Shown here one piece after another: positions 6,409 through 18,633 of a stretch of DNA of 64,000 nt. The stretch's first letter is position 1; each line of letters starts with the position of its first letter. Origin of the DNA: Egicoccus halophilus (GTDB lineage: Bacteria; Actinomycetota; Nitriliruptoria; Nitriliruptorales; Nitriliruptoraceae); the NCBI RefSeq assembly GCF_004300825.1, contig NZ_CP036250.1, positions 2,925,001 through 2,989,000 on the forward strand, read 5' to 3'. The notes under the pieces were generated by a model. It did not search any database, was not told the DNA's origin, and saw nothing but the letters and a program-made list of their open reading frames with translations. The position numbers and the translations under genes were made by a program.

Positions 6409-6591
6409 GTGGGATTCTTCAAGAAGGCCCTGATGGCGAAGGCCGGCGCGTTCGCGTTCAACAAGTTCCAGCAGCGTCGCGGCTCGGGGTCGGGTCGAGG
6501 CCGGGGTCGAGGCCGGGGTGGCTCCAACAGCGGGCTGGGCGGCCTGGTGCAGCAGTTCCTCGGCGGCAGTGGCGGCGGCCGGCGACGCTAG
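6409..6591 (+). CDS. Small Gly/Arg-rich basic protein, 60 residues
   Basis: Starts at GTG 6409 with a good AAAAGGA Shine-Dalgarno seven bases upstream. The first 22 residues ([19 protein letters not shown]) form a potential amphipathic, positively charged helix. A low-complexity [10 protein letters not shown] tract follows, then a hydrophobic patch ([12 protein letters not shown]) and an RRR end. The Gly-Arg tract is encoded by short DNA repeats of the type GGTCGAGGCCGG. No family is recognised; nucleic-acid or membrane binding is plausible from charge alone. Its stop shares the palindrome CTAG (6588-6591) with the stop of nirD on the other strand. Confidence 0.6.
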
Positions 6592-6962
6592 TCCGGCGAC
6601 GCCACCGCGACCCGGCCGCCGTCGACCCGCACCGCGTGGACGTCCACGCACCGGTCCTCGGCGTCGAGGCAGCGGCCGGTCGTGAGCGAGAAGCGCTGCT
6701 TGTGCACCGGCGAGGCCACGACCGGGTCGCCGCCGGCGTCACCGACGATCCCGCGGGCCAGCACGTTGGCGCCCGAACACGGGTCGTGGTGGTCGATCGC
6801 GAACACGCGCCCGTCGGACAGGCGGAAGACCGCGACCTGGCGACCGCCGACGAGTGCCGCGACCCCGGTGTCGGGCAGGATCGCCTCGAGGTCGCACACC
6901 TCGACGTGTCCTGGGTGCGACGTGTCGTCGCGTTCGGGTACGAGGGTCGCCAAGTCGCTCAT
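6588..6962 (-). CDS. nirD: Nitrite reductase small subunit NirD
   Basis: A 124-residue Rieske-like fold protein of the NirD family. As in other NirD proteins, the cluster-binding Cys/His pairs of true Rieske proteins are mostly missing: the first pair region reads IDHHDPCSGANVL and the second SPVHKQRFSLTTGRCLD. NirD is required for activity of the NADH-dependent cytoplasmic nitrite reductase, together with NirB. Its ATG forms an ATGA overlap with the nirB stop, so the two subunits are coupled. Length matches the family (about 105-125). Confidence 0.93.
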   Translation of the reverse strand: MSDLATLVPERDDTSHPGHVEVCDLEAILPDTGVAALVGGRQVAVFRLSDGRVFAIDHHDPCSGANVLARGIVGDAGGDPVVASPVHKQRFSLTTGRCLDAEDRCVDVHAVRVDGGRVAVASPD

Positions 6963-9592
6963 CCGCCCACCTGTCCGTCGGATCGGCCGGTGCCGCTGGT
7001 GGCGAGCACGGGCAGCAGCTCGCGCTCGTGGTCGAAGACCGGCCGTCGCTGTCCGCGCTCGCGGACGTACGCCAGGTCCGGGTCCGGGGTGTCGTCGTTC
7101 ACGAAATGGCGGAACCGGGCGACCTTCTGCGGATCGGCCAGGGTCGCCGCCCACTCGTCGGTGTAGCTCGCGACGTGGTCGGCCATTGCCGCCTCGAGCT
7201 CGTCGCAGATGCCCAGCGAGTCGTCGAGCAGGATCGCCCGCAGTTCCTCCATGCCGCCCTCACGCCGTTCGAACCACGTGCTGGTCCGCTCGAGCTTGTC
7301 GGCGGTGCGCACGTAGAACATCAGGAACCGGTCGAGGACGCGGACCAGCGTCGGCGTGTCGAGGTCCTCGGCGAGCAGGTCCGCGTGGCGCGGACGCATG
7401 CCGCCGTTGCCACAGACGTAGAGGTTCCAGCCCTTCTCGGTCGCGATGACCCCGAAGTCCTTGCTCTGCGCCTCGGCGCACTCGCGCGAGCAACCGGACA
7501 CGGCCGACTTGAGCTTGTGGGGTGAGCGCAGGCCGCGGTAGCGCAGCTCGAGCTGGACGGCGAGTGCCGTCGAGTCCTGCACGCCGTAGCGGCACCACGC
7601 CGTCCCGACGCACGACTTCACCGTCCGCAGCGCCTTGCCGTAGGCGTGCCCCGACTCGAAGCCGGCGTCGATCAGCCGCTGCCAGATGGACGGCAGCTGG
7701 TCGAGGCGCGCCCCGAACAGGTCGACGCGCTGCCCACCGGTGATCTTGGTGTACAGGTCGAACTCGGTCGCCACCTCGCCGAGCACGATCAGCTGCCGCG
7801 GGGTGATCTCGCCGGCCGGCACCCGGGGCACGACCGAGTAGGTGCCGTCGCGCTGGAGGTTGGCGAGGTAGCGGTCGTTGGTGTCCTGCAACGGCGCGTG
7901 CGCCGCGTCGAGGACGTGTTCGTTCCACAGCGTGGCCAGCATCGACGCGACCGCCGGCTTGCACGTGGCACAACCGCTGCCGGTCCCCCAGCCGTCGAGC
8001 AGCTCGGCGAAGGTGCGCACCCGCCGGGTCCGCACGATGTCGAACAGCTCCTGGCGGGTGTGGGGGAAGTGCTCGCACAGGCTGCGGTCGACCTCGATGC
8101 CGGCCGCTTCGAGTTCGTGCTCCATCAGCCGCTGGCACAGGGTCGCGCACGACCCGCAGCCGGTCCCGACGTTCGTCGCGGCCTTCAGCTGCGCGAGGGT
8201 CGTGATCCGCCCGCCGGCGGTCGCCGCCCGGACCTCGCCCTTGGTGACGTTGCTGCAGGTGCACACCGTGCAGCTGTCGGGCAACGCGGCCGGGCCGAGG
8301 GCGGGCGCCGCGTCCCCGGCCGCCGGCTGGAGCAGCGTGATCGGGGCGGCCGGCAGCGGCTCGCCACCGAGGTGGAACTGGTGCAGCACGGCGTACGCGT
8401 CGGCGTCCCCGACCAGGATGCCGCCCAGCAGGCGACCGTCGTCGTCGACCACCAGCTTCTGGTGCACGGCGGCGACGGGATCGTCGACGACCACGCACCG
8501 GGCGGCGGGGGTCGTCGCCTTCGCGTCCCCGAAGCTCGCGACGTCGACACCCAACAGCTTCAGCTTCGTCGACAGGTCGGCGTCGGGCACCTCGCCGTCG
8601 CCGCCCGCGAGGCGCGCGGCGACGACGCGGGCCTGCGCGTAGCCAGGGCCGACCAGGCCGTGGGTGACCCCGTCCACGGCGGCGACCTCGCCGACGGCCC
8701 ACACGTGCGGGTCCTCGGTGCGGCAGGTGCGGTCGACCAGCACGCCGCCGCGCTCCCCGACCGGCAGGCCGCAGTCGCGCGCGAGCTCGTCACGGGGCCG
8801 GATGCCGGCCGAGTAGACGACGACGTCGGTGTCCAGGGTCGTCCCGTCGGCGAACTCGAGGGCGCGCGGGCGCCCGTCGGCGGCGCGCACGACCCGCTTC
8901 GTCGCGTGTTCGGTGCGCACCTCGATGCCGAGGGCCTCGACGTGGCGGCGCAGCGCGGCAGCCGCCGGGGCGTCGAGCTGCGCGGGCATCAGGTGCGGCG
9001 CGAACTCCACCACGGTGGTGTGCAGCCCGAGGGTGCGCAACGCCTCGGCGGCCTCCAGGCCGAGCAGCCCGCCGCCGATGACCACGCCGCGTCGGGCGCC
9101 GGACGCGACCGAGGCGACCAGGTCGTCGAGGTCCTCGATGGTGCGGTAGACGTGGCACCCCGGCCCGTCGCCGTCGCCGACCGGCGGGACGAAGGGTCGC
9201 GACCCGGTCGCCAGCACCAACTCGTCGTAGGCCTCGTCGGCCCCCTGGTCGGTGCGCACGACCTGCCGGTCACGGTCGATCGCGACCACCCGGCTCGCGC
9301 TGCGCAACTGCACGTCCGGGTGCTCGTAGACCTCGGGCTCGGCGAGCGCCAGCGCCGTGACGTCGCGGGTCGCGACGTAGGAGCTCAGTCGCACCCGGTC
9401 GTAGGCGGGGCGCGGCTCGTCGCCGAACACCACGATCCGGTGCCCGACGTCGGCGGCGACCAGCCGGCGGACCAGTTCGTGGCCGACCATGCCGTTGCCG
9501 ACGACGACGACGCGACGGGGCGACGAGCGGTGCGCGGCGGTGGCGCGGGCGCCGGCCGTCTCGGGCGGGGTGGTGGCGGGGGAGGTCTTCAT
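6959..9592 (-). CDS. nirB: Assimilatory nitrite reductase [NAD(P)H] large subunit NirB
   Basis: An 877-residue enzyme that reduces nitrite to ammonium in the cytoplasm. Domains in order: FAD/NAD(P)H-binding reductase (about 27-330, GNGMVG and later GGGLLGLEAA dinucleotide folds); a BFD-like [2Fe-2S] domain (CTVCTCSN near 440, GTGCGSC near 475); a second BFD-like segment (GSGCATCKP near 540); and the siroheme/[4Fe-4S] domains with CVGTAWC near 660 and CSREC near 700, the C-x5-C and C-x3-C ligands. Length is typical. The first 26 residues look dispensable, so a later start is possible. A GlnR-like box lies just upstream on the same strand. Confidence 0.95.
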   Translation of the reverse strand: MKTSPATTPPETAGARATAAHRSSPRRVVVVGNGMVGHELVRRLVAADVGHRIVVFGDEPRPAYDRVRLSSYVATRDVTALALAEPEVYEHPDVQLRSASRVVAIDRDRQVVRTDQGADEAYDELVLATGSRPFVPPVGDGDGPGCHVYRTIEDLDDLVASVASGARRGVVIGGGLLGLEAAEALRTLGLHTTVVEFAPHLMPAQLDAPAAAALRRHVEALGIEVRTEHATKRVVRAADGRPRALEFADGTTLDTDVVVYSAGIRPRDELARDCGLPVGERGGVLVDRTCRTEDPHVWAVGEVAAVDGVTHGLVGPGYAQARVVAARLAGGDGEVPDADLSTKLKLLGVDVASFGDAKATTPAARCVVVDDPVAAVHQKLVVDDDGRLLGGILVGDADAYAVLHQFHLGGEPLPAAPITLLQPAAGDAAPALGPAALPDSCTVCTCSNVTKGEVRAATAGGRITTLAQLKAATNVGTGCGSCATLCQRLMEHELEAAGIEVDRSLCEHFPHTRQELFDIVRTRRVRTFAELLDGWGTGSGCATCKPAVASMLATLWNEHVLDAAHAPLQDTNDRYLANLQRDGTYSVVPRVPAGEITPRQLIVLGEVATEFDLYTKITGGQRVDLFGARLDQLPSIWQRLIDAGFESGHAYGKALRTVKSCVGTAWCRYGVQDSTALAVQLELRYRGLRSPHKLKSAVSGCSRECAEAQSKDFGVIATEKGWNLYVCGNGGMRPRHADLLAEDLDTPTLVRVLDRFLMFYVRTADKLERTSTWFERREGGMEELRAILLDDSLGICDELEAAMADHVASYTDEWAATLADPQKVARFRHFVNDDTPDPDLAYVRERGQRRPVFDHERELLPVLATSGTGRSDGQVGG

Positions 9593-9616
9593 GCGGACAG
9601 ACGGTGACGGTCCGCC

Positions 9617-9654
9617 GTTTCCGCCACGTTACGTCGACCGTCCGAACGCGTGAC
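9617..9654 (-). promoter_or_regulatory. GlnR-type box upstream of nirB
   Basis: On the minus strand this 38-bp site reads GTCAC-n6-GGACG-n6-GTAAC-n6-GAAAC. That is the architecture described for GlnR boxes in actinobacteria (gTnAC-n6-GaAAC-n6-GtnAC-n6-GAAAc). Both a-sites and the last b-site match fully; the first b-site is weak. It ends 24 bp before the annotated nirB start. GlnR activates nitrate and ammonium assimilation genes under nitrogen limitation in this phylum. Whether this genome encodes GlnR cannot be seen here. Confidence 0.6.
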
Positions 9655-9698
9655 GGCGTGGTCGCCCGCCACGGACGCGACCCGGTCGTCGACGTCGC

Positions 9699-9714
9699 GT
9701 AACACGGTGCGAAC
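9699..9714 (+). promoter_or_regulatory. Half GlnR-like box upstream of the nitrate reductase genes
   Basis: GTAAC-n6-CGAAC, one a/b pair of the GlnR consensus, located 33 bp before the ATG of the rightward nitrate reductase operon. The next pair in register (CAAAT) is poor. Together with the full box at 9617-9654 it occupies the short divergent promoter region. Confidence 0.35.
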
Positions 9715-9747
9715 GCGCCGCAAATGCCCGCCCGCCACGCTCACGAC

Positions 9748-11439
9748 ATGAGCGAAACCACCGTCCGAACCCTCATCGACGAGTTCCTGGCCGAGCAGGC
9801 CGGGACCACGGCCGTCGAACGCTTCGCGCGTGCCCATGACGACGCCCTCGACGCCTCGCCGACGGCGCCCCTGGCCGCGCGCCGCTACCGCGACCTGCTG
9901 CCCGCCACGCCGCCCGCCCCGGGACAGCAGTACGCGTTCGAGGTCGACCTCGACGCGTGCTCGGGCTGCAAGGCGTGCGTGGTCGCCTGCGGCAGCCTCA
10001 ACGGGCTGCCCTCGGGCCAGTCGTTCCGCCGGACCGGGACCCTCGTGGGCGCCAACGACGCCGAGGGCACCGGCCGGAACCTGCCGGTGCTGCGCACGGT
10101 GACGACGGCCTGCCACCACTGCGCCGAGCCGGGCTGTCTCGCGGGCTGCCCCGCCGACGCCTACGTCAAGGACCCCGACACCGGCGTGGTACGCCACCTC
10201 GACGACCAGTGCATCGGCTGCCAGTACTGCACGCTGACCTGCCCCTACGAGATCCCCGCGTACGACGCCGAGCGCGGCATCGTGCGCAAGTGCGACCTGT
10301 GCGCCGACCGGCTGTCGGCCGGCGAGGCCCCGGCGTGCGTGCAGGCCTGTCCGACCCACGCGATCAGCATCCGGGTGGTCGACCTCGACGACGTGCACGC
10401 CCGCGGCGAGGACCCGTGGCCGATCCCCTCCCCCGACCCGGCCGTCACCCGGCCGGCGACCCGGTGGCGCACGTCCGAGGACCTGCGCGACGGCGTCCGC
10501 GCGGTCGACGCGGACGCGGTCGTCCCGGGCCACGCGCACCCGCCGTTGACCGTCATGCTGGTCCTGACCCAGGCGGCCGTCGGGACGCTGCTCGCCCTGC
10601 TGCTGGGCACCTGGTTCGTCCCCGAACTGGCGGCCGTGGTCGCCGGCCCTGCCGCCGCGACGGCGTTGGGCACCGGCGTCGTCGCACTCGGCGCCAGCGT
10701 GCTCCACCTGGGTCGACCGCTGCAGGCCTGGCGCGCCGTGCTGGGGCTGCGCCACTCGTGGCTGTCACGCGAGATCGTCGCCTTCGGGGCCTTCGCCGGC
10801 CTGACCGCGACCGCCGCCGCCGCGCTGGCGACACCGACCGGGCCGCTCGCCGAGGCCGCCACGTGGCTGCTGCCGACCGCCACGGTCGTCGGCCTGCTGG
10901 GGGTGTTCACCTCGGTGATGGTGTATGCCGTCACCGGCCGTCGCTGGTGGTCGACACCACGGGTCGCCGCCCGGTTCGCGGCCACCACCGCCCTGACCGG
11001 CTGCGCCACCCTGCTGCTCGTCGTGGTCGGCACGGCGGCGGTCACCGGCGCCGACGTCCGCGGGGCGGTGCGTGCCCTGGCGATCGCGTCGGGAAGCGTC
11101 GGCGTCGGCGTCGGCGCGGCGGACCTCGCCCTGCTGCGCCACCACCGACGGCACGACGTCACGGCCGGCCGGATCGCCGCCATCGACGACGAACTCGCCC
11201 GCGTCGCCTGGTTGCACGTACGCCGGATGCCGGGCCTGACCGCGTCGCGACTGGTGGCGCTGTGCCTCGGCGCGCTCGCGGCGCCGTGGCTGACCTGGCG
11301 CATGCTCGCCGACGACGTCGGCGTCGGGATGCTCACCGCGGGGGCGGGGCTGATGACCGTCGTCGCGGGAGAACTGCTGGAACGGTGGCGGTTCTTCACC
11401 GCCAGCGCGCCGCCGCGGATGCCCGGAGGCCTGCGATGA
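9748..11439 (+). CDS. Nitrate reductase electron-transfer subunit: four-cluster ferredoxin fused to a DmsC-type membrane anchor
   Basis: A 563-residue fusion. The N-terminal half is DmsB-like, with 16 cysteines in four groups (71/74/77/81, 122/125/130/134, 155/158/161/165, 182/185/197/201), enough for four [4Fe-4S] clusters. From about residue 262 to the end it is a DmsC/NrfD-class polytopic membrane domain with eight or so hydrophobic helices, a fold that oxidises quinol in DMSO reductases. No Tat or Sec signal is visible, so the ferredoxin part faces the cytoplasm. The ATG at 9748 is preferred over one at 9724. It is coupled by an ATGA overlap to the catalytic subunit, suggesting quinol-driven assimilatory nitrate reduction. 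Confidence 0.85.
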   Translation: MSETTVRTLIDEFLAEQAGTTAVERFARAHDDALDASPTAPLAARRYRDLLPATPPAPGQQYAFEVDLDACSGCKACVVACGSLNGLPSGQSFRRTGTLVGANDAEGTGRNLPVLRTVTTACHHCAEPGCLAGCPADAYVKDPDTGVVRHLDDQCIGCQYCTLTCPYEIPAYDAERGIVRKCDLCADRLSAGEAPACVQACPTHAISIRVVDLDDVHARGEDPWPIPSPDPAVTRPATRWRTSEDLRDGVRAVDADAVVPGHAHPPLTVMLVLTQAAVGTLLALLLGTWFVPELAAVVAGPAAATALGTGVVALGASVLHLGRPLQAWRAVLGLRHSWLSREIVAFGAFAGLTATAAAALATPTGPLAEAATWLLPTATVVGLLGVFTSVMVYAVTGRRWWSTPRVAARFAATTALTGCATLLLVVVGTAAVTGADVRGAVRALAIASGSVGVGVGAADLALLRHHRRHDVTAGRIAAIDDELARVAWLHVRRMPGLTASRLVALCLGALAAPWLTWRMLADDVGVGMLTAGAGLMTVVAGELLERWRFFTASAPPRMPGGLR

Positions 11440-13634
11440 GGACCCGACTCGAGGCACTGCTGCGGCGCACCGACGGTCCGCTGACCCGCGAGCTGCTGCG
11501 CGAACCGGGCGGCCACGGCCTCGGTCAGCTCCCGGCCGGTCGGGCTCCCGACCGGGTCGTGACCAGCGTGTGCGGCTTCTGCTCCACCGGCTGCTCGCTG
11601 GACGTCCACCTGCGCGACGGCGAGGCGGTCGGCCTCACACCGACGGTCGGGTACGCCGTCAACGACGGCATGGCCTGCCCCAAGGGCTGGGAGTCGCTCA
11701 CGCCGTTGCGCGCCGACACGCGGGCGACGACGCCGCTGCTGCGCGACGCCGGCGGCCGCCAACGGCCGGTCGGCTGGTCCGAGGCCGTCGACGCGTTCGT
11801 CGGTGGCCTGCGGGGCGTGCAGCAGCGCCACGGACCCGCGTCGGTCGCGTTCCTGTCGACCGGCCAGATCCCGACCGAGGAGATGGCGCTGCTCGGCGCC
11901 GTCGCCAAGTTCGGGATGGGCATGGTCCACGGCGACGGCAACACCCGCCAGTGCATGGCGACCGCGGTGCAGGCCTACAAGGAGTCGTTCGGGTCGGACG
12001 CCCCGCCCTACACCTACGCCGACCTCGAGGCGTCCGACGTGGTGGTGCTCGTCGGCGCCAACCCGGCGATCGCGCACCCGATCCTGTGGGAACGCCTGCA
12101 CCGCAACCCGCACGCGCCGGCGGTGATCGTCGTGGACCCTCGCCGGACCGAGACGGCCGCCGCCGCGACCCAGCACCTCGCCGTGCGTCCGAAGGCCGAC
12201 CTCGAACTGCTCTACGGCCTCGGGCACCTGCTGATCGGCCTCGGCGCGGTCGACGAGGACTTCGTGCGCGACTCGACGCACGGCTACGCCGCCTATGCCG
12301 ACCACGTCGCCGGCTACCCGCCCGAGCGGGTGGCCGCGGCCACCGGCATCCCGGTCGCCGACCTCGAACGCTGCGCCCGGACCATCGCCGCCGGCCGGGC
12401 CGTGTCGTTCTGGTGGACGATGGGCGTCAACCAGTCCCACCAGGGCACCCGCACCGCGCAGGCCGTCATCGACCTCGCGCTGCTGACCGGCAACATCGGC
12501 CGCCCCGGCACGGGCGCCAACTCGATCACCGGCCAGTGCAACGCGATGGGCTCGCGGCTGTTCTCGAACACGACCAGTCTGCTCGGCGGACGCGACTTCA
12601 CCCGCGCGGCCGACCGGGCCGAGGTGGCCGAGGTGCTGGGGCTCGACGCGGCCTGCATCCCCGACCGGCCGAGCCTGCCCTATCACCGCATCGTGGAGGG
12701 CATCGCGAACGGGCAGATCCGCGGCCTGTGGATCGTGGCGACCAACACCGCCCACTCCTGGATCGGACAGGACGACGTCCGCGACCTGCTCGGCCGGCTC
12801 GACTTCCTGGTCGTGCAGGACCTGTACACCACGACCGACACGGCGCAACTGGCCGATCTGGTGCTGCCCGCGGCCGGCTGGGGCGAGAAGGAGGGCACCT
12901 TCATCAACTCCGAGCGCCGCATCGGACGCGTCCGCAAGGTCGCCCGGGCACCGGGACTCGCCCTCGCCGACTTCGCGATCTTCCGCCTGCTCGCCGAGGC
13001 CTGGGGCGTCGGCGGGCACTTCCGACGTTGGTCGTCACCGGAGGCGGTGTTCGGACTGCTGCAGGAACTGTCACGCGGCCGACCGTGCGATTTCTCCGGC
13101 ATCGACGGCTACGCCGACCTCGAGGCCCAGGGTGGCATCCAGTGGCCGCAACCCGTCCCCGGTGCGCTCGTCGAGAAGGAGCGTCGCCTGTTCGCCGACG
13201 GGGTCTTCCACCACCCCGACGGCCGCGCCCGGTTCGTCGTGGACGAGCCGCGCCCGCCGGCCGAACTGGTGCGTCCCCGCCGCCCGCTGGTGCTGCTGAC
13301 CGGACGTGGGTCGTCGGCCGAGTGGCACACCGGCACCCGGACCTCGACCTCGCCGGCGCTGCGCAACCTCGTGCCGGCCGACCCCTACGTCGAGGTGGCA
13401 CCGGCCGACGCCGCCGCCCGCGCCATCGTCTCGCACGACTGGGTCGAGCTCGTCAGCGAACGCGGGACCATGCGCGCACGCGCGTTGGTCACCCCCACGA
13501 TCGCGACCGGGAGCGTGTTCGTGTCGATGCACCACGTCGACACCAACCGGCTGACGATGCCGAGCTTCGACCCGCACTCGCACCAACCGGCCTACAAGCA
13601 CGCCGCCGTGGAGGTCCGCCGGGTCCACGACTGA
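11436..13634 (+). CDS. nasA: Assimilatory nitrate reductase catalytic subunit (molybdopterin oxidoreductase)
   Basis: A 732-residue protein of the DMSO reductase superfamily. The N-terminal [4Fe-4S] site is Cys46, Cys49, Cys53 and Cys81 (CGFCSTGC and MACPKG). The molybdenum ligand is a cysteine, Cys173 in GDGNTRQCMA, as in NapA/NasA and unlike the aspartate of NarG. No Tat signal is present, so it is cytoplasmic. The usual C-terminal molydopterin-dinucleotide binding domain is present (about 610-730), but there is no extra [2Fe-2S] tail. Context with nirBD, cobA, an NnaR-type regulator and NarK supports nitrate rather than formate as substrate. Its ATG overlaps the stop of the fusion subunit. 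Confidence 0.88.
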   Translation: MRTRLEALLRRTDGPLTRELLREPGGHGLGQLPAGRAPDRVVTSVCGFCSTGCSLDVHLRDGEAVGLTPTVGYAVNDGMACPKGWESLTPLRADTRATTPLLRDAGGRQRPVGWSEAVDAFVGGLRGVQQRHGPASVAFLSTGQIPTEEMALLGAVAKFGMGMVHGDGNTRQCMATAVQAYKESFGSDAPPYTYADLEASDVVVLVGANPAIAHPILWERLHRNPHAPAVIVVDPRRTETAAAATQHLAVRPKADLELLYGLGHLLIGLGAVDEDFVRDSTHGYAAYADHVAGYPPERVAAATGIPVADLERCARTIAAGRAVSFWWTMGVNQSHQGTRTAQAVIDLALLTGNIGRPGTGANSITGQCNAMGSRLFSNTTSLLGGRDFTRAADRAEVAEVLGLDAACIPDRPSLPYHRIVEGIANGQIRGLWIVATNTAHSWIGQDDVRDLLGRLDFLVVQDLYTTTDTAQLADLVLPAAGWGEKEGTFINSERRIGRVRKVARAPGLALADFAIFRLLAEAWGVGGHFRRWSSPEAVFGLLQELSRGRPCDFSGIDGYADLEAQGGIQWPQPVPGALVEKERRLFADGVFHHPDGRARFVVDEPRPPAELVRPRRPLVLLTGRGSSAEWHTGTRTSTSPALRNLVPADPYVEVAPADAAARAIVSHDWVELVSERGTMRARALVTPTIATGSVFVSMHHVDTNRLTMPSFDPHSHQPAYKHAAVEVRRVHD

Positions 13635-15724: not shown

Positions 15725-16917
15725 GTGCTGCTCCCCTCGAGTCGGTACCCGACGCCCCGGACGGTGCGGATCTGCACCCCCGTGCCGTCGAGCTTGCGCC
15801 GCAGACGGGCGATCTGGTGCTTGATGGCGCTCGGGTCGTCGGGCGCGGCATACCCCCAGGCCTCGGCGAGCAGCTGCTCGGGCGGACACACCATGCCGGG
15901 CCGGCGGGCCAGCGCCGCCAGCACCGCGTACCCGCGCTCGCCGAGGGCGATCTCGCGCCCCTCGGCGCACCGCACCGCGTGCGTGGCGGGGACGAGCTGC
16001 ACGGGTGGCCGCCAGTGCGACGGCGCGGTCGTGCGGCGCGACGCCCACCGGTCCAGCGACCGCAGCAGATCACCGGTGCGCGACCGGGTCGGCGTCAGCC
16101 ACGACGGGATGCCCAGCTCGTCCAGGGCCGCCGAGGTGACCGGCCCGATGACGGCCGTCGCCACCCGCTCGCGCAGTGCCTGCACCAACGCGTCGGCGTG
16201 GTCCGAGCTGCGCTGGGCGGCGATCGTGACCAGGTTGCGGCCCGCACCGGGCGAGGTCAGCACGACGATGTCGAGCTCGCCGGCCACGATCGCGTCGCCG
16301 AGCGCCAGGCCAGGGCCGACGTCGTCGGGCAGGGCGTGCCGGTAGGTCTCGACCGAGAGCACGTCGGCGCCCGCGTCCGCGACGGGCGCGAACGTCGTGG
16401 CGGCTGCCGTGCCGTGCAGTTGGACGGCGACGACCTCGCCGGGCAGGACCCGGCCACGCAGCCAACCGGCGACGTCGGCGTCGGTCTGCTTCTGCGAGGT
16501 CCACACCGCCCTGGCCCGCAACGCCTGCAGCCCACCGAGCGCCTTCGCGCCGCGCGCGACGCAACGTGCCGCGCCCGCCGCGGCCTGCAGCGCCTCGAGC
16601 CGACCGTGCTGGTCGGCCGCCTGCGCCCACAGCCGCATGCCGACCCCCGTCGAGGCGACGAACCAGTCGGGCGAGGCGTCGAGGATCGCGTCGGTGTCGG
16701 CCACGATGTGCTCGTCAGGCACCGGCACGTCGCCGCCGATGGTCGGCCCGTGCAGCACCGAGGCGCCGCGCCGTTCGAGGGCCGCCACCAGTTCGGCGCC
16801 CTTGCGCTGGGAGGTCACCCCCACCCGGATCCCCGACAGCGACAGTTCCCGACCTCCTGGGTGCTCGACGTTCCTGTGCCGTCGTCGGGCGTGCACGCCC
16901 GCAACAGCGACACGCAT
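15721..16917 (-). CDS. nnaR: NnaR-type regulator: HemD-like domain fused to an OmpR-type winged helix
   Basis: 398 residues from ATG 16917. Residues about 28-280 are a uroporphyrinogen-III synthase (HemD) fold with the linked Rossmann-like lobes (VLTSPGAGRNLV and TAVIGPVTSAALDELG). Residues about 305-395 are a Trans_reg_C winged helix of the OmpR/PhoB class, ending in IRTVRGVGYRLEG. This is the architecture of NnaR, known in Streptomyces and Mycobacterium as a co-regulator, with GlnR, of nitrate and nitrite assimilation. Its position between cobA and narK fits. The true start may be a CTG at 16845, eight bases past a perfect AGGAGG. Whether it retains HemD enzyme activity is open. Confidence 0.85.
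   Translation of the reverse strand: MRVAVAGVHARRRHRNVEHPGGRELSLSGIRVGVTSQRKGAELVAALERRGASVLHGPTIGGDVPVPDEHIVADTDAILDASPDWFVASTGVGMRLWAQAADQHGRLEALQAAAGAARCVARGAKALGGLQALRARAVWTSQKQTDADVAGWLRGRVLPGEVVAVQLHGTAAATTFAPVADAGADVLSVETYRHALPDDVGPGLALGDAIVAGELDIVVLTSPGAGRNLVTIAAQRSSDHADALVQALRERVATAVIGPVTSAALDELGIPSWLTPTRSRTGDLLRSLDRWASRRTTAPSHWRPPVQLVPATHAVRCAEGREIALGERGYAVLAALARRPGMVCPPEQLLAEAWGYAAPDDPSAIKHQIARLRRKLDGTGVQIRTVRGVGYRLEGSST
16853..16858 (-). promoter_or_regulatory. Perfect Shine-Dalgarno inside the annotated 5' end of the NnaR-type gene
   Basis: AGGAGG on the minus strand, followed after seven bases by an in-frame CTG (16843-16845) at exactly the point where HemD similarity begins. 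The upstream ATG at 16917 has no such site, so translation may really start at CTG, or the ATG form may be leaderless. Confidence 0.4.
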
Positions 16918-17024
16918 GGTGACGCCTCACCGTCGCCGGCGCGTTGAGGGCCTGTTTCGCCGCCGTGAACTGGCCGTCGCGCCGAGCGCCCGCGCCGGCA
17001 CGCATCGTCGTCCGCGACGCCGGT

Positions 17025-17062
17025 GTCACGCCGTCGCAACCTGGCGCGCACGCCGCTGGAAC
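17025..17062 (+). promoter_or_regulatory. GlnR-type box upstream of narK
   Basis: GTCAC-n6-GCAAC-n6-CGCAC-n6-GGAAC over 38 bp, matching the GlnR box layout. The first a-site is perfect, both b-sites match 4 of 5 positions and the second a-site keeps only its AC. It lies 59 bp before the narK start, in the divergent region shared with the NnaR-type gene, so it could serve both directions. Confidence 0.55.
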
Positions 17063-17121
17063 CCCCGCCGTCCATCGTGTCGCGGTCCGCACCACCCCAC
17101 CCGTGCCCCAGGATGGTTGCC

Positions 17122-18633
17122 ATGACCGCATCCAGCACCCGGCCCTCGGTCGGTTCCCACGTGTCCGGCCTGTGGCGGTTCACCGGCCGCCACCGGATCC
17201 TGCACCTGACCTGGTTCGCGTTCTTCCTCACCTTCGTGGTGTGGTTCTCGTTCGCGCCGCTGGCGGGGACCGTCGCGGCGGAGCTGGACCTGACATCCGA
17301 ACAGCTCGGCGTGCTGGCCCTGTGCAACGTCGCACTGACCGTGCCCGCCCGCCTGTTCGTCGGCATGGCCCTGGACCGCTGGGGGCCACGGCGCGTCTAC
17401 ACCACGATCCTGACCTTCTGCGCCGTCCCGGCCCTGCTCACCGCCCTGGCGACCAGCTTCGGCATGCTCGTCGTCGCCCGACTCGCGGCCAGCCTCGTCG
17501 GCGCCGGCTTCGTCGTCGGCATCCGGATGGTGTCGGAGTGGTTCCCGCCCCGCGAGGTCGGCGTCGCCGAAGGGCTCTACGGTGGGTGGGGCAACTTCGG
17601 TTCGGCGGCTGCCGCGATGACGCTGCCGACGCTGGCCGGGATGCTCGGCGGTTGGCGGGTCGCCCTCGCCAGCGTCGGGATCCTGGCCGCCGCCTACGGG
17701 CTGGTCTACCTGCGCTCGGTGTCCGACACCCCCGACGGGCGCACCTACGCCCGACCCGGTCGCCAGGGCGCGCTCGAGGTCACCAGCCGCCGGGCCGTGT
17801 TCGGCCTGCTCGCCCTGAACGTCCCGCTGGTGGCCGTGCTCGGACTGATCCTGTGGCGGCTGATGCTGGTCGGATTCCTCGCCCCCGCGACGATGTGGGG
17901 CGGACTCGCGGTGCTCGCCGTGTTGCTCGCCCTGCAGAGCCGCACGATCTGGCGGGTGAACGAACCGGCACGTCGCGACGCCTACCCGGCCCAGGACCGC
18001 TATCCGTTCCGAAACGTCGCCGTGCTCTGCCTCGCCTACGCGGTCACGTTCGGCTCCGAACTCGCGGTCGTGTCGATGCTGCCCGGCTTCTTCGCCGACA
18101 CCTTCGGCCTGTCCCCCGTCGTCGCCGGGCTCGCCGCCAGCGCGTACGCGTTCATGAACCTCGTCGCCCGCCCCACCGGCGGTGTGCTCTCCGACCTGCT
18201 CGGCAACCGCCGGCGCACGCTGTTGCTGCTGTGCGCCGCGCTGGGCTTCGGCTACGCGCTGCTGGCCGCCGTCGACGGCCGCTGGCCGCTGGTCCTCGCC
18301 GTCGCCGCCACGATGGCGTGCTCGTTCTTCGTCCAGGCCGGTGAAGGCGCCACCTACGCCATCGTGCCGCTGGTCAAGCGACGCGTCAGCGGTCAGATCA
18401 GCGGCATCGTCGGGGCCTACGGCAACATCGGATCACTGGTGTTCCTGACGCTGCTGCTGGTGACCGGACCGACCACCTTCTTCGTCACCATCGGCGTCTG
18501 CGCGGTCGTCGCCGCCGTCGCCTGCCGGTGGCTGGTCGAACCCGACGGTGCCTTCGACGCCGAGCTGACCCCGACCCCCGCGTCCACGCCCACCGACGCC
18601 AACCACCAGCCCCCGGCCACGGTGCCGGTGTAG
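17122..18633 (+). CDS. narK: Nitrate/nitrite porter NarK (MFS, NNP family)
   Basis: A 503-residue protein with twelve predicted membrane helices. The two NNP signature segments are visible: GGWGNFGSAAAAMTLP in the first half and GAYGNIGSLVFL in the second. The MFS loop 2-3 motif reads GMALDRWGPRR. It moves nitrate in, and possibly nitrite out, across the cytoplasmic membrane. The start at ATG 17122 has AGGA nine bases upstream; an ATG three codons earlier (17113) is the alternative. The last 30 residues are a Pro/Thr-rich cytoplasmic tail. The neighbouring NnaR-type regulator and the GlnR-like box support a role in assimilation. Confidence 0.92.
   Translation: MTASSTRPSVGSHVSGLWRFTGRHRILHLTWFAFFLTFVVWFSFAPLAGTVAAELDLTSEQLGVLALCNVALTVPARLFVGMALDRWGPRRVYTTILTFCAVPALLTALATSFGMLVVARLAASLVGAGFVVGIRMVSEWFPPREVGVAEGLYGGWGNFGSAAAAMTLPTLAGMLGGWRVALASVGILAAAYGLVYLRSVSDTPDGRTYARPGRQGALEVTSRRAVFGLLALNVPLVAVLGLILWRLMLVGFLAPATMWGGLAVLAVLLALQSRTIWRVNEPARRDAYPAQDRYPFRNVAVLCLAYAVTFGSELAVVSMLPGFFADTFGLSPVVAGLAASAYAFMNLVARPTGGVLSDLLGNRRRTLLLLCAALGFGYALLAAVDGRWPLVLAVAATMACSFFVQAGEGATYAIVPLVKRRVSGQISGIVGAYGNIGSLVFLTLLLVTGPTTFFVTIGVCAVVAAVACRWLVEPDGAFDAELTPTPASTPTDANHQPPATVPV

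Follow-up and report, generated by a model that had tools for sequence, protein, structure and literature searches.

The GlnR operator of Streptomyces coelicolor has an a-b-a-b organization, gTnAc-n6-GaAAc-n6-GtnAC-n6-GAAAc (Tiffert et al. 2008, cited in PMC10704036), and in the GlnR transcription activation complex four DNA-binding domains are arranged head to tail and bridged to RNA polymerase (Shi et al. 2023, PMC10704036). Co-regulation of nirB and narK by NnaR and GlnR has been described in Streptomyces and mycobacteria (PMC6277429, PMC11162112, PMC10704036), and mycobacterial NnaR/GlnR targets are reported to have leaderless transcripts (PMC6277429). The nirB promoter of Egicoccus halophilus shares with the S. 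coelicolor operator four 5-bp elements in 11-bp steps, a strong last b-site and placement on the coding strand at nirB, amt and glnA. However, the first b-site at nirB is degenerate here, and nitrate promoters of this class carry an additional in-phase GCGAC ahead of the array. The NnaR-GlnR systems likewise combine a regulator of the HemD plus winged-helix type, encoded among the nitrate genes, with a GlnR box at the same genes, but in the present locus the CTCAC-n-GTGAG palindrome was not found, the extra element is a direct in-phase GCGAC, and the recognition helix is of another type. Agreement with the published activation complex concerns promoter geometry only, in which 10 bp separate the last of the four repeats from the -10 hexamer. 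A GlnR box at nirB is already known in kind, whereas the in-phase GCGAC extension together with a divergent NnaR is the new part, and no account of a GlnR/NnaR system in Nitriliruptoria was found in the open-access literature, to which the search extended.

The nirB array and its conservation

The source genome is a single contig of 3,980,161 bases, and the window, meaning the whole 64,000-nucleotide stretch analysed, covers its positions 2,925,001-2,989,000 (Table 1). Positions 9654-9617 of the minus strand read GTCAC-n6-GGACG-n6-GTAAC-n6-GAAAC in 11-bp steps, 24 nt upstream of the nirB ATG (9592). The letters, strand and coordinates given in an earlier note on this DNA are exact on re-reading, and its count of three elements out of four matching GTnAC/GAAAC is borne out, the exception being GGACG, which agrees with GAAAC at 2 of 5 positions. 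Allowing at most one mismatch, the pattern GTNAC-n6-G-n10-GTNAC-n6-GAAAC has a single match in the 3.98-Mb genome, the nirB site itself, and its backwards control has none; the half pattern GTNAC-n6-GAAAC has 8 matches genome-wide (backwards control, 0), and no nitrogen gene was recognised among the open reading frames inspected at the other 7. A siroheme-pathway methyltransferase is also encoded near the nirB site.

Table 1. Promoter elements and genes of the nitrate/nitrite region (window coordinates)
Feature	Position	Strand	Sequence details or evidence
nirD-like Rieske protein	6588..7010	-	PF13806, 124.8 bits
nirB, nitrite reductase large subunit	6959..9592	-	TIGR02374, 993 bits
nirB -10-like hexamer CACCGT	9601..9606	-	10 bp past GAAAC, 8 nt before ATG; CACGGT in G015, CACGCT in G021
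GlnR-type array of nirB	9617..9654	-	GTCAC 9650-9654, GGACG 9639-9643, GTAAC 9628-9632, GAAAC 9617-9621; kept in G015 and G021
nirB fifth repeat GCGAC, candidate NnaR element	9661..9665	-	
Nitrate-reductase promoter fifth repeat GCGAC, in phase	9677..9681	+	
Nitrate-reductase operon array GTCGA-GTAAC-CGAAC-CAAAT, weaker	9688..9725	+	fourth in window with -10 hexamer; stronger in G015
Nitrate-reductase promoter -10-like hexamer CACGCT	9736..9741	+	6 nt upstream of ATG 9748
4Fe-4S protein fused to DmsC-like anchor, first gene of operon	9748..11439	+	PF13247, PF04976
Molybdopterin oxidoreductase, probable nitrate reductase catalytic subunit (name from context)	11454..13634	+	PF00384, PF01568, PF04879
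nnaR-like gene, uroporphyrinogen-III synthase domain and OmpR-type winged helix	15721..16917	-	PRK07239, 244.7 bits; PF00486, 68.3 bits
nnaR array TTCAC-GAAAC-TCAAC-GCGAC	16932..16969	-	top window score, 26.22; counterparts in G015, G021
nnaR fifth repeat GCGAC, in phase	16976..16980	-	
narK fifth repeat GCGAC, in phase	17014..17018	+	
narK array GTCAC-GCAAC-CGCAC-GGAAC	17025..17062	+	second score, 24.41; repeats almost identical in G015, G021
narK, nitrate/nitrite transporter	17107..18633	+	TIGR00886, 329.8 bits against a cut-off of 311.7

Full NirB is encoded in 3 of 35 genomes of the family Nitriliruptoraceae (the source, G000, together with G015 and G021). In all three the nirB array, a hexamer of the form CACnnT 10 bp beyond it and the start ATG hold their positions, with GAAAC-to-ATG distances of 24, 23 and 24 nt and hexamer-to-ATG distances of 8, 7 and 8 nt, respectively. 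Counting the fifth repeat with the other four, 18 of 25 repeat columns at nirB are invariant among the three genomes against 2 of 24 spacer columns, and the corresponding values are 23/25 and 4/24 at narK and 21/25 and 5/24 at nnaR; at the nitrate-reductase promoter, compared in two genomes, they are 14/25 and 11/24. The nirB repeats have been kept while the spacers diverged across two related genera, and the four-element site before nirB is confirmed as real and exceeds chance.

Comparison with amt and glnA1 promoters

Arrays of this type occur at the classical targets of the same family, namely at glnA1 in 6 of 6 genomes and at 23 of the 24 amt loci with sufficient upstream DNA (the exception being L193), the amt arrays mostly reading GAAAC-n6-GAAAC-n6-nCAAC-n6-GAAAC-n10-TAGCGT or near variants. 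The distance from the last repeat to TAGCGT is 10 bp in most amt promoters (L129-L203), and likewise at glnA1. The 23 amt and 6 glnA1 promoters (n=29), with no nirB included, served to train a scoring matrix; amt loci without an array (L193) or with short upstream DNA (L187, L194, L196, L204, L205 and L206) were left out, as were L135 and the other glutamine synthetase loci, L142-L152, among which there is no comparable array save a partial one at L146. Because training sites were chosen by top consensus score, their repeats are partly selected; the -10 hexamer played no part in the choice.

With the hexamer included, the top four matrix scores of the window lie at nnaR, narK, nirB (13.60) and the nitrate-reductase operon (8.31), followed by 3.04, and all four exceed the maximum of 5.69 over 797,880 positions in a 400-kb genomic sample, although at narK, nnaR and the nitrate-reductase operon the -10 hexamer was itself located by a matrix that contains it. 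A clipped matrix gave 21.31 for nirB and 15.53 for the nitrate-reductase operon against a sample maximum of 13.50, and altered repeat spacings of 4, 5, 7 or 8 yielded scores no higher than 3.75. When the matrix was reduced to the four repeats, nirB ranked sixth in the window, 11 sampled positions scored as high, and two other window places equalled or beat it. Equally good sites elsewhere, which the earlier note had regarded as evidence against a GlnR box, are thus absent when the -10 hexamer is part of the matrix, and some appear when it is not. Among 300 column-shuffled matrices run on the window, 4 reached 13.60 and none reached 24.41.

The same shuffles reached 8.31 in 28 of 300 cases; the nitrate-reductase array of the source genome, taken alone, is therefore not significant, and its weight derives from the homologous gene of G015, which is preceded by a stronger array, TTCAC-GCAAC-GCTCC-GGAAC. 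The suggestion that the nirB site might also govern the divergent nitrate reductase operon holds insofar as the operon appears to be included in the control, but through its own weaker plus-strand array rather than through the nirB site. A 4Fe-4S/DmsC-like membrane-anchor fusion heads this operon, an odd partner for an assimilatory enzyme. The nnaR-like gene is divergent to narK. Its ATG as listed (16917) overlaps the proposed -10 hexamer (window positions 16840-16921, minus strand), and an in-frame CTG preceded by AGGAGG, approximately 66 bp downstream of that ATG, may be the true start.

With 10 bp between the last nirB repeat and the -10 hexamer, the array occupies the position where a -35 element would lie. 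Hexamer-to-ATG distances are short at nirB as well as at the nitrate-reductase promoter (6 nt in G000, 7 nt in G015), which fits leaderless transcripts. All 29 training hexamers conform to nAnnnT, and 22 of them begin with T, compared with none of 11 nitrate/nitrite promoters (nirB, narK and nnaR in three genomes and nitrate reductase in two); the nitrate promoters consequently look weaker and may need an extra activator.

The GlnR orthologue, the NnaR-like protein and the in-phase GCGAC repeat

A glnR gene, the absence of which would have spoken against the reading, is present: one of nine OmpR-type domains encoded in the genome belongs to a 235-aa GlnR orthologue. Its nearest solved structures are 8hih (3e-65) and 8hig (2.6e-64), which we take to be GlnR structures, the chain names themselves being generic; it also matches the GlnR receiver entries 4o1i and 4o1h, and MtrA is far weaker (1.5e-30). 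The GlnR receiver aspartate is preserved in the structure-match alignment, and glnR is adjoined by an MshD-like gene (144.3 bits, under the cut-off of 163.1); in Mycobacterium tuberculosis glnR lies next to mshD. GlnR was detected at E < 1e-80 in 24 of 35 family genomes. Five of the 11 genomes without a match at this level (G004, G020, G021, G024 and G034) still have amt arrays, and glnR is therefore probably missing from these assemblies; G027 has neither a GlnR orthologue match nor an array at amt, no amt match was obtained in G003 or G007, and the upstream DNA of G008, G018 and G019 is too short. G021, an incomplete genome (89%), has arrays but no GlnR match better than 6.8e-24. With a GlnR orthologue present and the site conforming in its behaviour to the family's amt and glnA1 arrays, the nitrogen-status control of nirBD that had been proposed is the best reading of the sequence, and on sequence grounds control of nirB by GlnR is well supported.

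The protein encoded divergently to narK joins a HemD domain to a winged helix of the OmpR type, and as its score against NCBIfam PRK07239 does not reach the cut-off of 273 it is called NnaR-like, of a divergent type. Its distribution across the 35 family genomes coincides with that of full NirB, both being confined to G000, G015 and G021 (the chance of one particular set of three being 1 in 6545). A second relative in G021 (L210) shares 49% identity, and its match stops at residue 301 of 398, so that the winged helix is probably missing.

Ten of the 11 nitrate/nitrite promoters carry GCGAC one 11-bp step upstream of the four repeats, and the remaining one carries ACGAC there. RCGAC thus occupies this position in 11/11 of these promoters vs 0/29 amt/glnA1 promoters, or 0/6 amt/glnA1 promoters when only the three genomes with full NirB are considered, and its background frequency is 0.0073 per position in the genomic sample. 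If the promoters were independent the two comparisons would correspond to 4e-10 and 8e-5, but these are not real probabilities, because the arrays compared come from related genomes. Within the set examined, the GCGAC extension is specific to nitrate promoters. The pair RCGAC-n6-KTCAC alone was rejected as a specific mark, with 7 occurrences in the window against 2.23 expected (at least 7 in 1 of 100 shuffles), 3 of them at nitrate promoters, and 15 matches in the 400-kb sample.

Further loci (L237-L256) were surveyed by taking the best three places per locus and counting shifted registers of one array once. Among NnaR-encoding genomes of the class that lie outside the family, 7 of 8 arrays above the sample maximum carry GCGAC; at L242 the nnaR promoter array has CTCGC instead, and a second array, downstream of nnaR, has GCGAC, while at L243 and L244 no array exceeds the sample maximum. 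Among 12 loci from other classes, the best arrays of 11 exceed the sample maximum and none of these 11, taken irrespective of the gene served, has RCGAC; L247, one of these loci, has GTGAG, the published NnaR half-site, at the fifth-repeat position. Recognition helices are KHQ.ARLRRKL-like in Nitriliruptoria NnaR and HAVETA.ARLR-like in other classes, so NnaR type and fifth repeat change together, though common descent alone could explain this. No conserved palindrome partner was seen upstream of GCGAC in 18 aligned arrays, a set without the CTCGC array of L242, and T stands at -6 in 11 of the 18.

The published NnaR motif CTCAC-n13..18-GTGAG was not found in the window or at L231-L235, and among 45 actinobacterial loci (269,715 bases) the palindrome occurs at three places (L074, L244 and L247), with GTGAG 6 bp ahead of a GlnR-like array at L247 and, by eye, at L074, but not at L244. 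A search of 396 genomes of the phylum for GTGAG-n(0-25)-GTAAC-n6-GNAAC gave 102 matches, including 10 at gap 6, 23 at gap 19 and approximately 3 at each other gap; the near-identical letters of the 23 gap-19 matches suggest to us that they are 16S rRNA. Six of the 10 gap-6 loci were read, and because 5 of these have a promoter in common, which is not that of nitrate genes, a link between NnaR and this register is not supported. That shared promoter (L278, L279, L281, L283 and L284, all in large genomes) reads GTGAG-n6-GTAAC-n6-GCAAC and precedes similar genes, which we presume to be DUF1989/urea-amidolyase associated; it is likely a GlnR array with a GTGAG lead repeat.

Proposed regulation and alternative explanations

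Taken jointly, the sequence features make it probable, in our judgement, that the site is a genuine GlnR operator at the heart of a nirB promoter that depends on an activator and is probably leaderless, with GCGAC most likely read by NnaR. When nitrogen is limiting, each of the four 11-bp-phased repeats would take up one GlnR DNA-binding domain, the four being aligned head to tail, and from the place of the -35 element GlnR could hold RNA polymerase as in the published GlnR activation complex. The divergent NnaR of the same gene group would most likely read GCGAC and add a pathway-specific key, GlnR conveying the nitrogen-limitation signal and NnaR the signal of the pathway. We infer GlnR occupancy, activation, NnaR recognition of GCGAC and the leaderless start from this arrangement.

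A simpler explanation of GCGAC, that it is merely a fifth GlnR repeat and that longer GlnR arrays rather than NnaR mark nitrate genes, is unlikely but carries some weight, since GCGAC fits the loose GlnR repeat GNNAC, keeps the 11-bp phase and also forms the fourth repeat of nnaR arrays. However, GlnR repeats vary at positions 2 and 3, whereas the fifth repeat is nearly invariant, the arrays at ammonium and glutamine-synthetase genes have no such repeat, and NnaR is confined to genomes with full NirB. Less probable still is that another OmpR-family regulator of the MtrA or PhoP type binds the array, replacing or competing with GlnR: the MtrA and GlnR motifs are nearly identical, mycobacterial MtrA is described as binding nirB (PMC6277429), and the genome offers nine OmpR-type domains, but among the four scanned response regulators other than GlnR (L001, L004, L005 and L006; L002 and L007 lay outside the scan) the best MtrA score was 262 against a cut-off of 300, the arrays sit on classical GlnR targets, and G027, lacking the orthologue match, lacks the amt array as well.

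A chance origin of the four-element layout in GC-rich intergenic DNA is highly improbable. One element in four is mismatched, the repeats-only score is not unique and a few shuffled matrices equal the nirB score in the window; nevertheless, the layout, the ATG distance and the -10 place are common to two other genera despite diverged spacers, and the site is the only match in the genome at one mismatch or fewer.

Judged by sequence, the GlnR/NnaR logic established for Streptomyces and mycobacteria recurs in another class of Actinomycetota. Its spacing is clearly defined, at 11 bp per repeat and 10 bp to the -10 hexamer, and the latter step is a clean rule for finding GlnR-activated promoters in Nitriliruptoria. 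The GCGAC extension provides a simple sequence rule telling nitrate from general nitrogen promoters, and it reduces the question of NnaR-GlnR cooperation to a five-base mutation test. We give roughly even chances to a two-key operator in Nitriliruptoria, in which a four-repeat GlnR array, lengthened in phase by a single GCGAC that the divergent NnaR reads, would be covered head to tail by one unbroken row of proteins that checks for nitrogen shortage and for a tetrapyrrole or nitrate signal before a weak, leaderless -10 promoter fires. Switching on the nitrate/nitrite genes of these bacteria may therefore take a low-nitrogen signal together with a partner specific to the pathway.
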